Positions 28,123 to 37,226 of a stretch of 41,644 nt of DNA are shown one piece after another. The notes under the pieces are model-generated. The model was not told where the DNA came from and made no database searches. It worked only from the letters and a program-made list of their open reading frames with translations. The stretch is from Alphaproteobacteria bacterium (GTDB taxonomy: Bacteria > Pseudomonadota > Alphaproteobacteria > VGDZ01), in NCBI GenBank assembly GCA_016869515.1, contig VGDZ01000023.1:1-41644 (forward strand), in the 5' to 3' direction. How positions within the stretch are numbered: position 1 is the first letter of the stretch; each line of letters begins with the position of its first letter. The translations under genes were made by a program, and so were the position numbers.

Positions 28123-29124
28123 TTAGACGGTTTGGCGCTTGGCGTCCAGGGCCAGCGCGGCCAGGTCGATCAGGCCGGCTTCGCCGGCATCCGAGCCGAA
28201 AGCGAGGCGCTCGCCGCCGGGCGAAAACGCCAGCGCCGTGATGGGTGCCTCGCCGCCCTCGCGCAAGCCGACGCCGCGCCGCCCGGCGAGATCGACCAGC
28301 TGGATGGCGCCCGATTCGTAACCGGCGGCGGCGATCGGCTGACTGGGATGGCAGGCGACGCGCATGACCAACGGCCCGCCCAGCCCGCCCAGTTCCAGCG
28401 GCGGCTTGCCCATCGGCCCTGGGCCCGAAAACGGCCAGGCGACGATGACGTCGGCGCCGGAGGTCACCAGCAGGTTGGGCCGGGCGGCGAAGGCGAAACT
28501 GCGCGGCTTGGCGGCATAGCCCGACATGCGCATGTCCTGGGCATCCGCCAGCCGCCAGCCGTGCAGCGCGTTCTCCTGCATGGCGGTGACGACGTATTTG
28601 CCGTCCGGGCTGACGGCCACCGCGAGATGCGAGCCCTTCCACGCCAGGCGCTTGGGTTCCTGGGTCTCGGGCTTGGTCCACCACAGGCTGACCCCGCCGT
28701 AATGCGCCACGGCGACGCGCTTGCCGCCGGGAAAGAAAGCGACGCCGCCGACGGTCGAGGGATGGAGGAAGGATTTCTGCCGGCCGTCGGCTTCGATCAG
28801 CACCGCCCGCTTGCCGACGCCGGCCAGGACGCGGCCGCCATCCACGGCCAGATGCTCGATCCATTGGCCGGGCCAGGCGGCGATCTCGGCCGGGGAATCG
28901 TCGGCGGCGATGCGCCGGAGTCGGCCGTCGTCGCCGCCGGCGATCAGGTCGGGACCCTGGGCGACCAGCGCGCTCATCGCGCCGTCCTGGCAGGCAAGAT
29001 CGATCCGCTTGTCGCCGCGGACGATCTGCACCCGCCCATCGCCCAAGGCCAGGCCAAGCCGGCCGCCGGCATCGAAGGCCAGCGCCGCGACATGGGCACC
29101 GGCCTGCCAAGTCAGGTCGGCCAT
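28123..29124 (-). CDS. WD40-repeat beta-propeller protein
   Basis: A 333-residue protein made of repeated four-strand blades. Repeats are seen as HVAALAFDAGGRLGLALGDG, LAVAVSPDGKYVVTAMQENALHGW, and ITALAFSPGGERLAFGSDAGEAGLID, i.e. WD40-type units with variable WD dipeptides. No signal peptide is present, so it is probably cytoplasmic. It starts 1 nt after the cobW stop and so is made with the zinc GTPase. Similar WD40-CobW pairs are known in alphaproteobacteria, which suggests a scaffold role in metal handling, but that is inference. Confidence 0.82.
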   Translation of the reverse strand: MADLTWQAGAHVAALAFDAGGRLGLALGDGRVQIVRGDKRIDLACQDGAMSALVAQGPDLIAGGDDGRLRRIAADDSPAEIAAWPGQWIEHLAVDGGRVLAGVGKRAVLIEADGRQKSFLHPSTVGGVAFFPGGKRVAVAHYGGVSLWWTKPETQEPKRLAWKGSHLAVAVSPDGKYVVTAMQENALHGWRLADAQDMRMSGYAAKPRSFAFAARPNLLVTSGADVIVAWPFSGPGPMGKPPLELGGLGGPLVMRVACHPSQPIAAAGYESGAIQLVDLAGRRGVGLREGGEAPITALAFSPGGERLAFGSDAGEAGLIDLAALALDAKRQTV

Positions 29125-29125
29125 G

Positions 29126-30136
29126 TCAGGCGGCGCAGGATTCGAAGCCTTGGCGCAACTTCTCGCCGTCGAGCTTGCGGCCGATGAACACCATCTGGCT
29201 GTGGCGCTTCTCGCCCGGCTGCCAGGGCTGGCCGGGCGCGCCGTCGGTCATCATGTGCACGCCCTGGAAGACGAAGCGCCGGTCCTGGCCCTTGAGATCG
29301 AGAATGCCCTTGGAGCGTAGGATGTCCTGGCCCTGGGTCGCCAGCAGGCTTTGCAGCCAGGGCCGGAACTTGTCGCCGTCCAGCGGCCGGTCGAGGCTCA
29401 AGGACACGCTGGCGATGCCGGCCGCGGCGATATGGTCATGGCCGTGATCGTGGTGATGGTGTTCATGCTCATGGTCGTGATCGTGGCCGCAATGCTCGTC
29501 GTGGACATGGGTCTCGACCGCCAGCCGCGCCAGATCGAAGGCGCCGCGATCGAGGATGGCATCCAGCGGCACCTGGGCGCGGGCGGCGCGATGGACGCGG
29601 GCCTGCGGGTTGAGACGGTGGATGCGCTGTTCGACGCGACGCAGGCCGGCCTCGTCCATCAGGTCGGTCTTGTTGAGGACGATGACGTCGGCGAAGGCGA
29701 TCTGCTCCTCGGCCTCGCGGCTGGCCTCGTCCAGCCGCCGGCCGATATGATAGGCGTCGACCACCGTCACCACCGCGTCTAGCCGCGTCGCGCGCTTGAT
29801 CTCGTCGTCGGCGAAGAAGGTCTGCGCCACCGGCCCGGGATCGGCCAGGCCGGTGGTCTCGACGACGATGGCGTCGAACTTGCCCTTGCGCCGCATCAGC
29901 CCCTGGATGACGCGGATCAGGTCGCCGCGCACGGTGCAGCAGATGCAGCCGTTGTTCATCTCGAAAACTTCCTCGTCGGCGCCGACCACCAGCTGGCCGT
30001 CGATGCCGATCTCGCCGAACTCGTTGACGATCACGGCGTAGCGCTTGCCGTGGGGTTCGGTCAGGATGCGGTTGAGCAGCGTGGTCTTGCCGGCGCCGAG
30101 ATAGCCGGTCAGCACGGTGACGGGGACTTGCGACAT
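29126..30136 (-). CDS. CobW/COG0523 family metallochaperone GTPase
   Basis: COG0523 GTPases deliver zinc or other metals to client proteins. The 336-residue protein has Walker [11 protein letters not shown] (11-20), the metal-binding CxCC as C64-I-C66-C67 in NNGCICCTV, Walker [11 protein letters not shown], and NKTD for guanine. Residues 210-235 form a His/Asp-rich loop (runs of HDH and HHHH), typical of zinc-linked members. The CobW C-terminal domain follows. ATG 30136 was chosen because the protein begins directly at the P-loop strand. It is divergent from the His-rich transporter gene, with a Zur-like half site between them. Zinc is more likely than cobalt because of this context. Confidence 0.92.
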
Positions 30137-30163
30137 GCGCGGGCGCTCCTGGGCGGGGCGGAG

Positions 30164-30174
30164 GATATAACATC
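30164..30174. promoter_or_regulatory. Zur-like half site between cobW and the CDF-type gene
   Basis: GATATAACATC on the plus strand (GATGTTATATC on the minus) matches one full half of the alphaproteobacterial Zur palindrome GATGTTATAACATC; the other half is degraded. It lies 28 nt before the cobW ATG and 67 nt before the divergent gene. The stronger Zur-type site at 34633-34662 shares the ATGTTATA core. Confidence 0.5.
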
Positions 30175-30240
30175 GCCCGCCGACGGAATCGACCTTGTCG
30201 CTTGACCCTGCGGCGCGGAATGGTTCTATCGACGCCGCGC

Positions 30241-30876
30241 ATGAGCGGACATCGCCACCACCACCATCGCCATCACCATCAGGCCGACGATGTGCCGGCT
30301 GGACCGGGCTATCGCCGGGCATTGTGGTTCGCGCTGGCGGTCAATGCCGGCCTGTTCGTGACCGAGGCGGTCGGCGGCCATGCCGCCGAGTCGGTGTCAC
30401 TATGGGCCGATGCGCTCGACTTCCTCGGCGACAGCGTGACCTATGCGCTGGCGCTGGCCGCCGCGGCGATGGCCCAGCCGACTCGCTCGCGCCTGGCCTG
30501 GGCCAAGGGGCTGTCGATGGCGGCGATCGGGCTGTGGGTGATCGGGCTGGCGGCCTGGCGGGCCGCGACCCACGCCGATCCCGAGCCCGCCACCATGGGC
30601 CTGATCGCGGTCTTGGCCTTGGCCGGCAACGTGGCTGCGGCGCTGGCGCTCTATCCGCACGCCGAGGGCGACAGCATGATGCGCTCGGTGTGGCTGTGCA
30701 CCCGCAACGATGCGTTGGGCAATCTGGCGGTGTTGGCGGCGGCGGCGGGCGTGTTCGGCACCGGCACGCGCTGGCCCGACCTGGCGGTGGCGGCGCTGAT
30801 GGCCGGGTTGGCGCTGCACTCCGGGATCGCCGTGATGCGCGCCGCGCGCGCCGAGCTTCAGAACGCCAGCACGTAG
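30241..30876 (+). CDS. Short cation diffusion facilitator-type transporter with His-rich N-terminus
   Basis: A 211-residue inner-membrane protein beginning [14 protein letters not shown], a probable metal-binding tail. Six helices follow. The CDF metal-site motifs are seen as [16 protein letters not shown] in helix 2 and [16 protein letters not shown] in helix 5. The usual cytoplasmic C-terminal domain of CDF exporters is absent, as in a known short subgroup. Zinc is the likely metal from the neighbours. ATG 30241 is preferred because the His tail starts there; ATG 30220 would add seven residues. The 3' end overlaps the porin gene by 19 nt. Confidence 0.82.
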
Positions 30877-31964
30877 CTCACCCGGCCGCCATAGGCCTTG
30901 GCCTCGACTGCTCTTTCGGTGGTCTCCCTCCAGCCCAACTCGACCAGCAGGCCGAAACCGAATTTGTAGCCGGCCGCAACCGCTTTCAACTGATCGGTGG
31001 TCTCGGCATTGGCGGCGTTGTTGCTTTGGCGGTTCTCGCGGCCGGTGCGCGAGGCCGCCAGGTACCATTCGTTCCAGCCCAGCCGCGCCCCGGAGGTCAA
31101 ATAGGAGCGGTTGGAGGTGCCGCCATCGACATGGTTGATCTGGGTCCACTCGACCAGCGGCCGCAGCGACCAGGCATCGTCGATCTTCCAGTCGTATTCC
31201 AGGCCGCCGACATAGCCTTCCTGGGTGAAGCGATTGTTGGTGCCGCGCGCCTGGCGCTGCATGCCGACGGTGTAGCCCAGGCCCTCGGCGAAACCGAATT
31301 TCTGGCCGGTCAACGCCAAGGTATAGGAGTCGAACTCGCCGTCGTTCGACACGCCGCCATCCGAACGATGGGTGCGGCCGCGGCGGCCTAGATTTCTGTC
31401 GTTGCGCTTGGGCGCATTGACCACGCTTTGCGACAGGAAACTGTGGTCGGCCTGGAACAGGCTGAAGGCCAGTTCGTGGCTGCCGGCCTTTTCCAGATCG
31501 GCCTTGTAGGCCAGGCCGGCGCCGATCTTTTCCTTGACCTCGTAGTCGGCCGCCAAAACATTGGCGTAGAGGCCGACGCTCTTGGCGGAATCGAATGCCC
31601 AGCCGAAGGCCGGACCGTATTTGCCGGCTCTAAGGGTGAAGCCGGCCTGTTCGTAATTGGCGAAAAGCTTCTCGAAATAGAATCCTTCGTCCTCGAAATA
31701 GCGCGAGTCGCGGGCGTTGTTGCGCACCTGCTCGCCCTTGATCGAGCCTTGCAGCGACAGGGCTTCGCTGGCCTCGGCCTTGAAGCCGAGATCGATCTCG
31801 GCGAAGGCGTTGTTGCGGCGATTGATCTTGGGTTGGGTATCGTAGAAGCGGTCGGCCTGGACTTTGGTCGACAGCTCGCCCGAAAGCTTGGGGTAGTCTT
31901 CGGCGACAGCCAGCGCCGGTAGCGCCGCCAGCACAGCAATCATGGTCTTGCGCAAAATACTCAC
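30858..31964 (-). CDS. Outer-membrane porin-like beta-barrel protein
   Basis: A 368-residue protein with a clear signal peptide (KTMIAVLAALPALAVA, cleavage about residue 21) and alternating hydrophobic strands rich in Tyr, Trp and Gly. It ends [10 protein letters not shown] with the terminal Phe required by the BAM complex, so it is an outer-membrane barrel. It is not a TonB receptor: there is no plug domain and it is too short. It starts 6 nt after znuA and is the last gene of the zinc-uptake operon, suggesting zinc-responsive entry across the outer membrane. The pore's specificity is inference. Confidence 0.85.
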   Translation of the reverse strand: MSILRKTMIAVLAALPALAVAEDYPKLSGELSTKVQADRFYDTQPKINRRNNAFAEIDLGFKAEASEALSLQGSIKGEQVRNNARDSRYFEDEGFYFEKLFANYEQAGFTLRAGKYGPAFGWAFDSAKSVGLYANVLAADYEVKEKIGAGLAYKADLEKAGSHELAFSLFQADHSFLSQSVVNAPKRNDRNLGRRGRTHRSDGGVSNDGEFDSYTLALTGQKFGFAEGLGYTVGMQRQARGTNNRFTQEGYVGGLEYDWKIDDAWSLRPLVEWTQINHVDGGTSNRSYLTSGARLGWNEWYLAASRTGRENRQSNNAANAETTDQLKAVAAGYKFGFGLLVELGWRETTERAVEAKAYGGRVSYVLAF

Positions 31965-31970
31965 CCCCGC

Positions 31971-32852
31971 TCAGTCGACCGCGTTCATCGCCGCGACCAT
32001 AACAGACAGGTTGTGCCGCAGCATGGCCAAAAAATCCGGGGCCGGACCGTCCGGCCGCGACAGCGTGTCGGCATAAAGCCGCGGGCCGAGCCGCGCCCCG
32101 GTTTCGCGCGCCAACCGCTCGGCCAGTCGGGTTTCGGCCGGGCTTTCGACCAGCACCACGCGCACGCCTTCCGCGCGCACGGCGCGGATCAGGCGCGCCA
32201 TCGCCTGGGCCGAGGGCTCGGATTCGCTCGAAAGACCCTTGAGGGCAAGAACGCGCAGGCCGAAGGCTTGGCCGAGATAGCCGAAGGCGTCGTGGCTGGT
32301 GACGATGCGTCGGCGCTCGGATGGGATGGCGGCGATGGCGGCGCGGTATTCGGCGGCGAGGCTTTCCAGCCGCTTGGCATAGTCTTCGGCCCGCGCGCGA
32401 TGGCCCGCCGCGCCCGCCGGATCGAGCGCCGCCAGCCCCTCGGCGATGGTGGCGACATAGCGCGCGGCCAGGGCCGGGTCCTGCCAGGCATGGGGATCGG
32501 CGCCGTGATGGCCGCCCTGGCGCGGAGCGATGCCGGCACTGGCGACGATGACGCGGGGCTTGGCGCCCGAAGCCTTGACCAGGCGTTCGACCCAAGGATC
32601 GAAGCCCAGGCCATTGACGATCACGACGCGGGCTTGCGCGAGCTTGCGCGCTTCGGCCGGGCCGGGTTGGAAACCATGGGCGTCGGTCTCGGGGCCGACC
32701 AGCACCTCGACCCTGACCGCCTCGCCGCCGACGACGCGGGTCAGGTCGGCCAGGATGCTGAAGCTGGCGACCGCCACGATCTCGGCGCGGGCCGGTATCG
32801 CGGCCAGCAACAGCGCGGCCAGGCTAAGCGCGCAGATGCGGGCTTTGGACAT
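31971..32852 (-). CDS. znuA: Zinc ABC transporter periplasmic substrate-binding protein
   Basis: ZnuA captures zinc in the periplasm and passes it to ZnuBC. The 293-residue protein has a signal peptide (ICALSLAALLLAAIPARA), and likely metal ligands H59 (TDAHGF), H121 (DPHAWQDP), H187 (TSHDAFGYL) and D262 (YADTLS) are in the order of cluster A-I binding proteins. The usual long His/Asp-rich loop is reduced to QGGHHGADPH. Zinc rather than manganese is favoured by the Zur-type operator and operon; Mn-specific relatives share the fold. The start overlaps znuB by 29 nt. Confidence 0.9.
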   Translation of the reverse strand: MSKARICALSLAALLLAAIPARAEIVAVASFSILADLTRVVGGEAVRVEVLVGPETDAHGFQPGPAEARKLAQARVVIVNGLGFDPWVERLVKASGAKPRVIVASAGIAPRQGGHHGADPHAWQDPALAARYVATIAEGLAALDPAGAAGHRARAEDYAKRLESLAAEYRAAIAAIPSERRRIVTSHDAFGYLGQAFGLRVLALKGLSSESEPSAQAMARLIRAVRAEGVRVVLVESPAETRLAERLARETGARLGPRLYADTLSRPDGPAPDFLAMLRHNLSVMVAAMNAVD

Positions 32853-33702
32853 GGCGTCGATAGAGCGAGTCCCTCGCTCCGACCGCGACCGAAAGCAAAT
32901 AGAGGGCGCCTGCGCTCAGCACGATCGCCGGACCCGAGGGCAGGTCGAGATGGAACGACAGCAGCAGGCCGACGACGGTGGCGGTCAGCGCGATCGCGGC
33001 CGCGACCAGCATCTGTGTCCACACTGTCTCGGCCCAGAACCGCGCCGCCGTGGCGGGCAGGACCAGGAGCCCGATCGCCATCAGCGTGCCCAGCGCGTGA
33101 AACGCCGCCACCAGATTCAGCACCAGGAGTCCGAGAAATCCCAGATGCGCCAGCGTGCCGAGCCCGCCGCCATGGGTCTTGAGGAAACCCGGATCGAGGC
33201 ATTCGACCACCAGCGCACGATAAAGCGCGGCCAGCCCCAGCAAAGTCAGGCTGGCCACCGCCGCCATCAGCCACAGCGCCGCGTCGTCCACCGCTAGCGC
33301 CGAGCCGAACAGCGCCCGTATCAGGTCGATCGGCGTGCCGGCGCGCGACACCAGCATCACCCCCAGCGCCAGCGCCAGGACGTAGAATCCCGCGAAACTG
33401 GCGTCCTCCTTCAGCGTCGTCGTCCGCGCCATCAGCCCCGACAGGCCGGCAACCAACAGCCCGGCCACGAGGCCGCCCAGGCTCATCCACCAGATCGACA
33501 GCCCCGCCAAAAGGAACCCCAGCGCCGCACCCGGCAGGATGGCATGCGACAGCGCGTCGCCCACCAGGCTCATGCGCCGCAGCACCAGGAACACGCCCAA
33601 CGGCGCCGCGCCCAGCGCCAGCGCCAGCCCGCCGACCAGCGCCCGGCGCATGAAGACGAACTCGGCGAAGGGCGCGATCAGTAGATCGTAAGGCGAGATC
33701 AC
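32824..33702 (-). CDS. znuB: Zinc ABC transporter permease
   Basis: Membrane channel of the zinc importer. The 292-residue protein starts VISPYDLLIAPFAEFVFMRR and has about eight to nine helices. It carries the family segment RRMSLVGDALSHAILPGAALGF (residues split across the first two helices) and GTLMAIGLLVLPATAA, the ABC-3 permease signatures. The GTG start at 33702 overlaps the znuC stop in GTGA; the longer open frame upstream would lie inside znuC and is not hydrophobic. It overlaps znuA by 29 nt. Confidence 0.92.
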   Translation of the reverse strand: MISPYDLLIAPFAEFVFMRRALVGGLALALGAAPLGVFLVLRRMSLVGDALSHAILPGAALGFLLAGLSIWWMSLGGLVAGLLVAGLSGLMARTTTLKEDASFAGFYVLALALGVMLVSRAGTPIDLIRALFGSALAVDDAALWLMAAVASLTLLGLAALYRALVVECLDPGFLKTHGGGLGTLAHLGFLGLLVLNLVAAFHALGTLMAIGLLVLPATAARFWAETVWTQMLVAAAIALTATVVGLLLSFHLDLPSGPAIVLSAGALYLLSVAVGARDSLYRRHVQSPHLRA

Positions 33703-34508
33703 GCCGCGCAGACCTCGGCCGCTTCGTCCCAGGCCGCGGTCAGGGCGCGGGCGCGCGTCAGGTTGACTTCGGCCAGGACGTCCGCCGTCGGCCCCCACGC
33801 CACCTTGTGCCGCGCCAGCAGCAGCGTCGCGGGGAAATGCCGCCGCACGCGGTCGAGTTCGTGCAGCACGGCGACGACGGTGCGGCCCTCGCCATGCCAG
33901 CGCGCGATCACGCCCATCAGGTCCTCGGCCGCGCGCTGGTCGATCGAGGCGAAAGGTTCGTCGAGCAGGATCAGCGGAGACTCTTCGAGCATCAAGCGCG
34001 CGAACAGCGCGCGCCGCAACTGGCCGGCCGAAAGCGTGGCGATCGGTCGGCGCTCGAACCCGGCCAGGCCGACCGCGTTCAGCGCCGCCTGGGCGCGGGC
34101 GCGATCCTCCTGCGATGCCGCGCCGAACGCCCCCAGCCGGCGCCAGTGGCCAAGCATGGCGAGTTCGGCCACGCTCACCGGCACCGCGCGGTCGAGTTCG
34201 GCCGCTTGCGGCAGATAGGCGATGCGCGCCGGATCGAGGCCGAAGCGTTCGATCCGTCCGGCGGCCGGGCGGATCAGGCCCATGACCGCCTTGAGCAAGG
34301 TCGACTTGCCGCCGCCATTGGGGCCGACGATCGCGGTCAACGAGCCGCGGACGAAACTGCCCGAGAGATGATGCACCGCCGGGTGGCGTTCGTAGGCAAG
34401 AGTGAGGTCCTCGAGGCGCAACGCTTCGGGTGCAGTTCCGCGTGCGCTGACCGCCGGCACCGGGCCGTGCGCATGGTCGTGTGTGGCCGGTTTCGGCGCG
34501 GCACTCAT
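33699..34508 (-). CDS. znuC: Zinc ABC transporter ATP-binding protein
   Basis: ATPase that powers ZnuAB. The 269-residue protein has Walker A GPNGGGKSTLL, signature LSAGQLRRALFARLML, Walker B LILLDEPFASID and the H-loop VVAVLHELD, all intact. The N-terminal 25 residues include HDHAHGP, a small His cluster that could bind metal. ATG 34508 lies 7 nt after the stop of the 37-codon membrane peptide gene and 4 nt before the end overlaps znuB. It is the first large gene behind the Zur-type operator. Confidence 0.92.
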   Translation of the reverse strand: MSAAPKPATHDHAHGPVPAVSARGTAPEALRLEDLTLAYERHPAVHHLSGSFVRGSLTAIVGPNGGGKSTLLKAVMGLIRPAAGRIERFGLDPARIAYLPQAAELDRAVPVSVAELAMLGHWRRLGAFGAASQEDRARAQAALNAVGLAGFERRPIATLSAGQLRRALFARLMLEESPLILLDEPFASIDQRAAEDLMGVIARWHGEGRTVVAVLHELDRVRRHFPATLLLARHKVAWGPTADVLAEVNLTRARALTAAWDEAAEVCAA

Positions 34509-34515
34509 CGCATTC

Positions 34516-34629
34516 TCACTGCGAGGCCCACCACACCGCCAACCACAGCAGGACCAGCGCCGGCAGCACCGCTGCCACGCGCCGGCCCAGGCCGGCCATC
34601 AAGGGCGAATTCCAGTCGGCGGGGGTCAT
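34516..34629 (-). CDS. 37-residue single-helix membrane protein leading the zinc operon
   Basis: A short frame begins ATG at 34629 and ends TGA at 34516. It encodes MTPADWNSPLMAGLGRRVAA followed by the hydrophobic run VLPALVLLWLAVWWASQ. That is a short polar start, two arginines, then one strong membrane helix, giving an N-in orientation by the positive-inside rule. The znuC ATG follows after 7 nt. The ATG lies only 3 nt from the Zur-type palindrome, with no Shine-Dalgarno, and the predicted transcript would start at or next to this ATG. It may be a small subunit or regulator of the ZnuBC importer, or a leader peptide. Function is not recognised. Confidence 0.6.
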   Translation of the reverse strand: MTPADWNSPLMAGLGRRVAAVLPALVLLWLAVWWASQ

Positions 34630-34632
34630 GGC

Positions 34633-34664
34633 GACAGAATGTTATAATGTAACATTTCTGTCAA
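34633..34664 (-). promoter_or_regulatory. Zur-type operator overlapping the zinc-operon promoter
   Basis: Arms AATGTTA (34638-34644) and TAACATT (34650-34656) form a perfect inverted repeat over TAATG. They are extended by GACAGA (34633-34638) and TCTGTC (34657-34662). The core ATGTTATA is that of alphaproteobacterial Zur boxes. On the minus strand TTGACA (34659-34664) is 17 nt from CATTCT (34636-34641), so the operator covers the spacer and -10 box. Transcription would begin near 34629. Repression by a Zur protein under zinc sufficiency is the natural reading. Confidence 0.8.
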
Positions 34665-34697
34665 ATGGCACCTATTTGTCCTTTGATGCGCGTCCCC

Positions 34698-34943
34698 TCA
34701 CATCGCCATGTCGAACAGCAGCAATTCGGCGTCTTGGGCGCGGTCGAGAACGATGGGGCCGGACGTGGAAATCGCGGCGCCGTCGCCGGCATCCAGCTTT
34801 TCGCCGTTGAGCGCGACCGGGCCGCGCCCGATCTGCACCCAGGCGCCGCGACCGGGGCGGAGGTGGTGGCGGATGCTCTCGCGGGCGGTCAGCAGCGCGG
34901 CATAGAGATCGACCTCGCGATGGACGGTCAGCGCGCCCTCGCG
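34698..34943 (-). pseudogene. Truncated pirin gene: 3' end only (direct repeat copy A)
   Basis: These 246 bases match the last 246 bases of the intact pirin gene (36522-36767) without gaps; I count 14 differences, none in about the first 90 bases from the stop codon. The translated end is the same: NGEKLDAGDGAAISTSGPIV and LLLFDMAM. Similarity begins exactly at the stop codon and ends abruptly at 34943. The upstream N-terminal three-fifths is missing, so the metal-binding residues are absent and this is a remnant. Confidence 0.85.
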
Positions 34944-35069: not shown

Positions 35070-36437
35070 ATGACCCTTGTCTATGGCGCGATCGGCATGT
35101 CCGGGCTGGCGGTCGGTTGCCTGTTCGCTTGGCAATATGGATCTTCCGCTCAGGACATCTATTCCGCCGCCTACATTGTCTTGTCGCTGGCAGCAGGCGC
35201 GGCGTTTCTCGGATTGGCGTTTTGGAGGGATGCGAGACGGCACGTGGTTGCCGCCGTCCTATGTTCGCCGGTGATCGCGGCCTATTTGTTCGAGGCCTAT
35301 GTCCAGACATTCCGGCCGCGCGAACATTCTTCCGTCGAAGGAAGCGCGGGCCTAGCGGCGACGGAAAGAGATCGTGATCGAAGATCGAGATGGGACGTGC
35401 TGGCCGAGCTCGAGGCCGGGACGTCGCCGGGAATCGTTCCAAGATACGTACCTTTCGTTCCGCCGCCATTGCGGATCGATGGACGCGAAATCGTTGTCAT
35501 GTCGGGGGTCGCGAACCGGGCGACGCTGTCGGGAAACGAGAACGGCTATTGGGTGACGTACAAATCCGATCGATTCGGGTTTCGCAACCCCGACCAGGTC
35601 TGGGACGCGCCTCGCGCCGATATCGTCTTGCTGGGCGATTCCTTCACGTTCGGCGCCGAGGTTCGCGATGACGAACATTACGCTTATGTCCTTCGTCAAC
35701 GCCATCCGGCGACAATCAATTTGGGCTATCCGTCTTCGGGGCCACTGGGCTATTTGGCGGCACTCACCGAATACGGCGCGGCGAAGAAACCGAAATTGGT
35801 GTTGATTTTCTTTTATGAGGGAAATGATGCCGCCGACATGGTTCGGGATTTCGCCTCGCCGGTACTGCGAAAATATCTGACGCCGGGTTTTCGCCAAGAT
35901 CTGGACCGGCAGCAGGGCGAGATCGAACTGGCGATGCTGCGGGTTATTTCGGAAGCCAAACGGCAATTTCGGATCTCACCGCCCGCCTTGGAACGTCGCG
36001 GGTTCGAACTGCAACGCTGGTTCAAGTTGCAGGAATTGCAGTTGCGGCTTGAATTGCCGTCTTTCTATGCCGCCGACCGCTTCGACCGATTTGTCGACGT
36101 GGAGTTGATGTCGACGATTTTCGAACGCATTCGGGAACTGGCCGAGTCCTGGCAAGGGCGGGCGGTCATCGTTTATCTCCCGGCCTGGCGCAACGGGCGA
36201 GACACGGAACGGACGACGCGCAGATTGGAAAGGGTTCGGGCGGGCATGATTGCCGCGGCCCAAAAAGCGGATTTACCGGTCATAGACACGCTGCCGGCTT
36301 TCCACCGGCACGCCACGCCCAATCGACTCAATGCCGGGGCGCCCAATCCCGGCGGACATTACTCGCCGGAAGGATACAAATTGGTGGGCGAAGTCGTGCT
36401 CCACCAACTCGAAACCATGAATTACGTTTCCCGATAG
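35070..36437 (+). CDS. Membrane-anchored SGNH/GDSL-type hydrolase or O-acyltransferase-like protein
   Basis: A 455-residue protein with about three N-terminal membrane helices (residues 1-80), then a soluble domain. SGNH blocks are visible: block I IVLLGDSFTFGAEV with the nucleophile Ser, a Gly in the SSGPLGY region, Asn in FFYEGNDAADM, and block V GGHYSPEGYKLVGE with the catalytic His. Such proteins often de-acetylate or acetylate surface polysaccharides, but the substrate is unknown. Base composition is markedly lower in G+C than neighbours (28 of 60 bases in 35761-35820) and codon use is less biased, which points to horizontal transfer. It lies between two pirin sequences. No strong Shine-Dalgarno is seen. 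Confidence 0.85.
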   Translation: MTLVYGAIGMSGLAVGCLFAWQYGSSAQDIYSAAYIVLSLAAGAAFLGLAFWRDARRHVVAAVLCSPVIAAYLFEAYVQTFRPREHSSVEGSAGLAATERDRDRRSRWDVLAELEAGTSPGIVPRYVPFVPPPLRIDGREIVVMSGVANRATLSGNENGYWVTYKSDRFGFRNPDQVWDAPRADIVLLGDSFTFGAEVRDDEHYAYVLRQRHPATINLGYPSSGPLGYLAALTEYGAAKKPKLVLIFFYEGNDAADMVRDFASPVLRKYLTPGFRQDLDRQQGEIELAMLRVISEAKRQFRISPPALERRGFELQRWFKLQELQLRLELPSFYAADRFDRFVDVELMSTIFERIRELAESWQGRAVIVYLPAWRNGRDTERTTRRLERVRAGMIAAAQKADLPVIDTLPAFHRHATPNRLNAGAPNPGGHYSPEGYKLVGEVVLHQLETMNYVSR

Positions 36438-36521: not shown

Positions 36522-36767
36522 TCACATCGCCATGTCGAACAGCAGCAATTCGGCGTCTTGGGCGCGGTCGAGAACGATGGGGCCGGACGTGGAAATCGCG
36601 GCGCCGTCGCCGGCATCGAGCTTTTCGCCGTTGAGCGTGACCGATCCCCGCGCGAGCTGCACCCAGGCGCCGCGGCCGGAGCGGAGGTGGTGGCGGATGC
36701 TCTCGCCGCCGGTCAGCAGCGCGGCAAAAAGATCGACCTCGCGATGGATGGTCAGCGCGCCCTCGCG
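36522..36767 (-). repeat. Direct repeat copy B: 3' end of the intact pirin gene
   Basis: Partner of 34698-34943 in the same orientation, exactly 1,824 bp away, with no gaps. The repeat covers the pirin C-terminal 81 residues and stop. Together the copies bracket the SGNH gene. Confidence 0.85.
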
Positions 36768-37226
36768 CCCGTCGCGCGCCGCGACCAGAACCAGCCGGCC
36801 GCGCTTGTCCGCGCTCGGGAAGGTCTTTTGCTCGTAGCCGGGGGCGAGGCCGCGGCGTTCGGGCAGGATCCAAATCTGCAGGAAATGCACCGGCTCGCTG
36901 TCAGAGGCGTTGAACTCGCTATGGCGGATGCCGGTGCCGGCCGACATGCGCTGGACATCCCCCGGGCGGATCGTCGAGCCGGTGCCGAGACTGTCCTTGT
37001 GCGCCAGCGCGCCCGACAGGACATAGGACAGGATTTCCATGTCGTTGTGGGGATGGGTGTCGAAGCCACCGCCGGGGACGACGCGGTCCTCGTTGATCAC
37101 CCGCAAGGGGCCGAAGCCCATATGGCTGGGATCGTGGTAATGGCCGAAGGAAAAGCTGTGGCGGCTGTCGAGCCAGCCGAAATCGGCGCGGCCGCGCGCC
37201 GCGGATTTGCGGAGGATCAGGGTCAT
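36522..37226 (-). CDS. Pirin family protein (YhaK-like cupin)
   Basis: Pirins are bicupin metal proteins; bacterial members have been assigned quercetinase or regulatory roles. The 234-residue protein begins MTLILRKSAARGRADFGWLD and has the metal ligands H58, H60 (FDTHPHND), H102 and E104 (RHSEFNAS). The RVINEDRVVPGGGFDTHPH and MSAGTGIRHSEFN segments are the family signatures. The C-terminal cupin is the half duplicated at 34698-34943. It starts 46 nt after the DyP peroxidase stop and may be cotranscribed. The exact activity is unknown. Confidence 0.92.
   Translation of the reverse strand: MTLILRKSAARGRADFGWLDSRHSFSFGHYHDPSHMGFGPLRVINEDRVVPGGGFDTHPHNDMEILSYVLSGALAHKDSLGTGSTIRPGDVQRMSAGTGIRHSEFNASDSEPVHFLQIWILPERRGLAPGYEQKTFPSADKRGRLVLVAARDGREGALTIHREVDLFAALLTGGESIRHHLRSGRGAWVQLARGSVTLNGEKLDAGDGAAISTSGPIVLDRAQDAELLLFDMAM

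Follow-up and report, generated by a model that had tools for sequence, protein, structure and literature searches.

A conserved small membrane protein gene before znuC, tied to one zinc importer subtype and encoding a candidate accessory subunit of the permease

Described zinc importers and the operon of the window

We know of no small subunit in the cluster A-I metal ABC importers. The ZniCBA importer of Klebsiella pneumoniae and Rhizobium leguminosarum resembles the operon predicted here both in its C-B-A gene order and in its zinc regulation. In the portions of the ZniCBA accounts consulted (PMC10797113, PMC12183173), only the C, B, and A subunits are described and the small gene reported below goes unmentioned; neither these portions nor those consulted on AztABCD invoke such a subunit to account for zinc uptake. 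The chromosomal position of the Klebsiella zniCBA genes (PMC10797113) matches the mltB-zniCBA-pncC locus of Enterobacter, which carries the small gene, and a Zur motif lies 153 bp before zniC in R. leguminosarum (PMC12183173), a spacing that leaves room for a small gene. In Neisseria (znuCBA, or MntABC), the small gene sits directly before znuC and overlaps it. The models of the AztABCD system of Paracoccus denitrificans resemble the large subunits of our operon, yet our proteins fall under the curated cutoffs, and the small gene is absent from the AztABCD loci examined (Paracoccus versutus, a Klebsiella plasmid, and Shinella).

CydX, KdpF, and AcrZ are, like the protein described here, about 30-50 residues long with one helix and few conserved residues, and they are encoded with or act on a large membrane complex, but their sequences and partners differ from those of our protein. 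CydX is oriented N-in, and whether it is present depends on the CydA subtype (PMC4325964).

The window, i.e., the whole stretch of 41,644 nucleotides analysed, is alphaproteobacterial contig VGDZ01000023.1 and contains a predicted zinc importer operon in the order small gene, znuC, znuB, znuA:

34638..34656, no strand assigned: Zur-type operator AATGTTATAATGTAACATT (plus strand), a palindrome unique in the genome that overlaps the small gene's presumed promoter
34516..34629, minus strand: gene for the small membrane protein (37 aa), which opens the operon; an open frame of a family found before znuC, with a predicted helix
33699..34508, minus strand: znuC / zniC, ABC ATPase (269 aa) that resembles AztA without reaching the AztA cutoff
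32824..33729, minus strand: znuB / zniB, ABC-3 family permease, alignable with the 7kyp permease over its full length
31971..32852, minus strand: znuA / zniA, ZnuA-type zinc substrate-binding protein

The small gene runs from an ATG at 34629 to a TGA at 34518-34516 and encodes 37 residues (MTPADWNSPLMAGLGRRVAAVLPALVLLWLAVWWASQ), and its stop is separated from the znuC ATG (34508) by 7 nt. These values reproduce the coordinates, minus strand, length, and location given in an earlier, sequence-only reading of the window. That reading had also described a clean N-in single helix with three Trp. AlphaFold2 predicts a single helix over residues 9-36, with pLDDT of about 97-98 across residues 21-37, and three Trp do fall within the helix, the whole peptide having four.

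The three large subunits of the window find their best or near-best NCBIfam models in AztA, AztB, and AztC but do not reach the curated cutoffs of these models (206/220, 246/280, and 248/350 bits, respectively), and no model match to AztD was found beside the operon, where the genes checked past znuA are porin-like, CobW, and WD40. The operon is thus not of the AztABCD type by these models, whereas its order of ATPase, permease, and binding protein with a Zur-type operator upstream is that of the ZniCBA/znuCBA type. The window's ZnuC has an N-terminal extension with His, and its ZnuB, the exact start codon of which is unsettled, also matches the ZnuB of 9oko.

Several neighbouring features were noted in passing. 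A porin-like secreted frame of 368 residues (30858-31964, minus strand) begins 6 nt past znuA, yielded no match in Pfam or NCBIfam, and is possibly a fifth gene of the zinc operon. Downstream of znuA there is also a CobW-family GTPase gene (29126-30322, minus strand) with a His-rich linker, its product scoring under the ZigA cutoff; a gene for a WD40-repeat protein comes next, at 28123-29124. Between the porin-like gene and the CobW gene, on the opposite strand, lies a frame (30202-30876, plus strand) with a His-rich N-terminus that, judged by eye, resembles a cation diffusion facilitator. On the other side of the operon, a direct repeat of 246 nt (34698-34943 and 36522-36767, 94% identical, spacing 1824) represents the 3' part of a pirin gene (36522-37226, minus strand) copied immediately upstream of the zinc operon, the left copy being a truncated pirin fragment; an SGNH/GDSL-type gene (35070-36437, plus strand) lies between the two copies.

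Conservation and distribution of the small gene

By itself, a 37-codon frame is unremarkable in GC-rich DNA, where short frames are common, and the frame before znuC could in principle have arisen by chance. The sequence-only reading had suggested looking for conserved short frames before znuC in relatives, and this search gave clear support. Loci were gathered blind to the small frame as the best ZnuC homologues from 385 genomes, and a profile was started from eleven frames picked by eye and then refined over the entire locus set. In 93 loci, the refined profile detected a short frame that stops at the znuC start or close to it; a homologous frame is carried by 93 of the 99 loci with a ZnuC scoring about 165 bits or more against that of the window. 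Two of the six misses are instructive: L148 has masked sequence, with the frame present further upstream, and L151 has a divergent candidate frame. No small frame was present in a paralogous znuA-znuC-znuB subtype (about 26 loci). Nearly all profile matches at E < 0.01 (93/94) are on the znuC strand, and a profile built without the window's own sequence still finds the window frame with E 3.5e-11 among the 754 frames of the window, the runner-up having E 0.17. This leave-one-out result, together with conservation in scores of genomes, refutes the chance reading, to which we attach a negligible probability.

The same picture emerged when a 54-member profile (A2) was run, blind to znuC, against the six frames of 399 Pseudomonadota genomes. 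Matches were obtained in 82 of these genomes, and 65 of the 70 matches inspected immediately precede a co-oriented znuC homologue (58 of 63 with the seed genomes excluded); the other five have E > 3e-4, and most of them fall inside unrelated longer frames. In 199 Actinomycetota genomes, there were seven matches at E up to 0.01 (best 7e-4), which is chance level, and they sit in frames of 144-572 aa, lengths unsuited to the small gene. Eleven further non-Pseudomonadota genomes reached through the loci had no small gene. Members of the small protein family accompany this importer type in many Alpha-, Beta-, and Gammaproteobacteria. We conclude that the frame is a genuine gene, belonging to a conserved family tied to one zinc importer subtype; the gene runs in the direction of znuC, mostly at a short distance from it, and lies near a Zur-type operator.

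In public records, a few members appear as hypothetical proteins (Skermanella rosea WP_203101353.1, Paracoccaceae plasmid LA6_005487, and Comamonas antarctica WP_175506313.1). The earlier description of the protein as undescribed holds for the sources searched: Pfam and NCBIfam gave no consistent match for 54 members, isolated weak ones only, and so placed them in no named family; the PDB contained no relative; the open-licence literature, as main texts, yielded no description of the family; and the main text of a Ribo-seq paper on S. meliloti contained no zinc-operon small protein. Further carriers include Azospirillum lipoferum 4B, Thioclava, Methylobacterium bullatum, Bartonella sp. HY038, Neorhizobium, Neisseria gonorrhoeae, and Enterobacter hormaechei. 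At the Enterobacter zniCBA locus, a TGTTATGTTATAACA palindrome lies shortly before the small gene, whose stop codon overlaps the start of zniC, and the gene table lists nothing at the small gene's position; the small gene is likewise not listed in the Neisseria gene table, which is incomplete for that record.

Selection on the peptide and predicted regulation of the operon

Across 151 members, Arg17 is present in 100%, Trp29 in 92%, Ala35 in 90%, Leu28 in 86%, and Trp34 in 84%, and position 13 is Gly or Ser in 90%; since the members were gathered by profile, these percentages lean towards the profile. Comparison of synonymous with non-synonymous change, also proposed in the sequence-only reading, supports a protein: for pooled within-genus pairs, which are not independent of one another, pN was 0.204 and pS was 0.426. 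Changes by codon position in within-genus pairs were distributed 329:268:529, and the ratio exceeded 1 in only one pair among those for which it could be computed. Substitution in the small gene is purifying. Charge bias gives an N-in orientation for 136 members and the opposite for 3, which, with the predicted helix, bears out the topology proposed earlier, and the small protein is accordingly a short N-in single transmembrane helix conserved as a protein. The conservation moment over the helix face was not significant (p 0.22).

Within the 3.69 Mb assembly, the Zur-type pattern TGTTAYNNTRTAACA is matched exactly only by the palindrome TGTTACATTATAACA at 34654-34640, and the genome encodes three FUR-family regulators. 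The Zur-type box ends 8-9 nt before the small gene's ATG, so the gene does start right at the operator, as had been observed. Since the ATG lies about 9 nt from the box and no clear ribosome-binding site is seen at the start, the message may be nearly leaderless. Zur-like boxes, counted at no fewer than 10/12 arm matches and no more than 250 bp upstream of the small gene, were present in 41 of 91 loci of relatives vs about 1.6 in shuffles. From this arrangement we infer that the small gene is expressed and is under Zur control. A main-clade locus without the small gene, L006 (G015), has a Zur-like box just 57 nt before the znuC homology and is a natural empty arrangement.

The position of the small gene, first after the operator, is also what one would expect of a leader or coupling frame whose translation controls znuC translation or transcription while the peptide itself is inert. 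Its stop is often near or overlapping the znuC start (for instance, as ATGA in Enterobacter and Neisseria), and translational coupling from the small gene to znuC is consequently likely, although exact gap values between the two genes are unreliable because start codons were chosen by script. An attenuation leader is nevertheless a poor description of this gene: a scan of 34400-34900 for terminators found none, an Rfam search of the small gene/znuC leader found no element, the 7-nt gap to znuC leaves no space for an attenuator, and the frames share no common run of regulatory codons. Moreover, members from three classes share the peptide sequence, in which certain Arg and Trp residues are near-invariant, and it is under purifying selection. 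The idea of a leader peptide controlling znuC, raised in the sequence-only reading, is for these reasons disfavoured, and we consider it rather improbable. As for a fusion or programmed frameshift producing a membrane-anchored ZnuC, the frame relation between the two genes varies (71, 17, and 5 loci) and no natural fusion was seen, and this candidate was rejected.

Linkage to znuC and znuB and the proposed role

The presence of the small gene tracks the ZnuC tree: across 195 labelled loci, it changes six times. Of 51 long loci, 13 lack znuA or have it inverted, as judged within each fetched locus stretch, and retain the order small gene-znuC-znuB, except that one of the 13 also has no detected znuB. 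The link is thus to the ATPase and permease and not to the binding protein. These observations bear on the reading in which the small protein is an independent membrane protein of the zinc-starvation response that merely shares the operon and has a partner other than the importer. Zur control alone would account for co-expression with the importer, a putative partner, but presence tracks one ZnuC subtype rather than zinc operons generally, and the gene is nearly always directly before znuC, leaving this reading highly improbable in our judgement.

Two exceptions to the pattern were observed. The AztABCD branch (L180, L183, and L260, with an AztD chaperone) lies inside the main clade but is without the small gene, an apparent loss. 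Conversely, one gammaproteobacterial group (L214, L222, L227, L230, L235, and L245) pairs the small gene with a ZnuC from the other clade, for which horizontal transfer or separate recruitment is possible; this pairing counts against the subunit reading set out below.

Coevolution signals were suggestive of ZnuB as the partner, though weak and confounded by relatedness. The partial distance correlation of the small protein was 0.198 with ZnuB vs 0.099 with ZnuC, the interval of the difference including zero. Columns that differ where the small gene is missing numbered 4 in ZnuB and one in ZnuC, and random sets gave a mean of 0.17 and a maximum of 2 ZnuB columns, the missing set being phylogenetically clumped. 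The small helix looks additional to the permease rather than split off from it: because ZnuB aligns end to end with the 7kyp permease, no permease helix appears to be missing, and a small protein replacing a missing helix was rejected.

A role in zinc sensing was also weighed, in which the small protein is a membrane-bound regulator: its N-tail would detect zinc in the cytoplasm and either close ZnuBC down (trans-inhibition) or pass the zinc on. At least 3 His precede the core in 17 of the 151 members, and at least 5 do so in 11 (examples are MASHDHHHSGHHDHHAHA and MSHEHAHAHEHVHEHAHDHAHD, and some members have long HxH runs). The gammaproteobacterial group listed above shares a conserved H-x-H-R-H...GPCHFSL tail, and given the N-in topology such tails would face the cytoplasm near the ATPase. 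However, His and Cys are few or absent in most members, that of the window included, which rules out metal binding as the common function, and the conserved part is the helix. A general regulatory role of this kind is therefore unlikely, and the His-rich tails would be a lineage-specific addition that hints at zinc handling rather than a core function.

The best explanation, in our view, is that the small single-pass protein would be produced alongside ZnuC and ZnuB, with Zur in control, and is probably an accessory subunit of the ZnuB-type (ZniB) permease. The protein would reside in the inner membrane with a cytoplasmic N-terminus, its helix packing against the permease, with Arg17 at the cytoplasmic boundary and Leu28-Trp29-x-x-Val-x-Trp34-Ala35 forming a putative contact in the outer half. 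There it may stabilise the ZnuB dimer or adjust its activity, in the way that CydX, KdpF, and AcrZ serve their large partners; where the N-tail is rich in His, zinc binding next to the channel's cytoplasmic exit may be a further role. Importers can function in the absence of the small protein, as the AztABCD clade and a few others are without the gene. An accessory subunit of ZnuBC had been put forward in the sequence-only reading, and conservation, the N-in helix, subtype linkage, and purifying selection all fit it; the physical partnership with ZnuB/ZnuC is the part that we infer.

Zinc importers of this type have been studied in Klebsiella, Neisseria, and rhizobia as three subunits only. 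We regard as evenly balanced the stronger proposal that the small protein is a widespread, overlooked fourth subunit of ZniCBA/ZnuCBA-type importers in Proteobacteria, Neisseria and Enterobacter among them, i.e., a permease-binding helix that in some lineages has a His-rich cytoplasmic tail sensing or handing over zinc. If so, it would, to our knowledge, be the first small subunit described for cluster A-I metal ABC importers, and work done without it, such as reconstitutions, structures, and deletion studies, may be incomplete. A small protein that tracks one transporter subtype offers a clean, testable case, and the profile is ready for annotating a gene that automatic pipelines usually miss.
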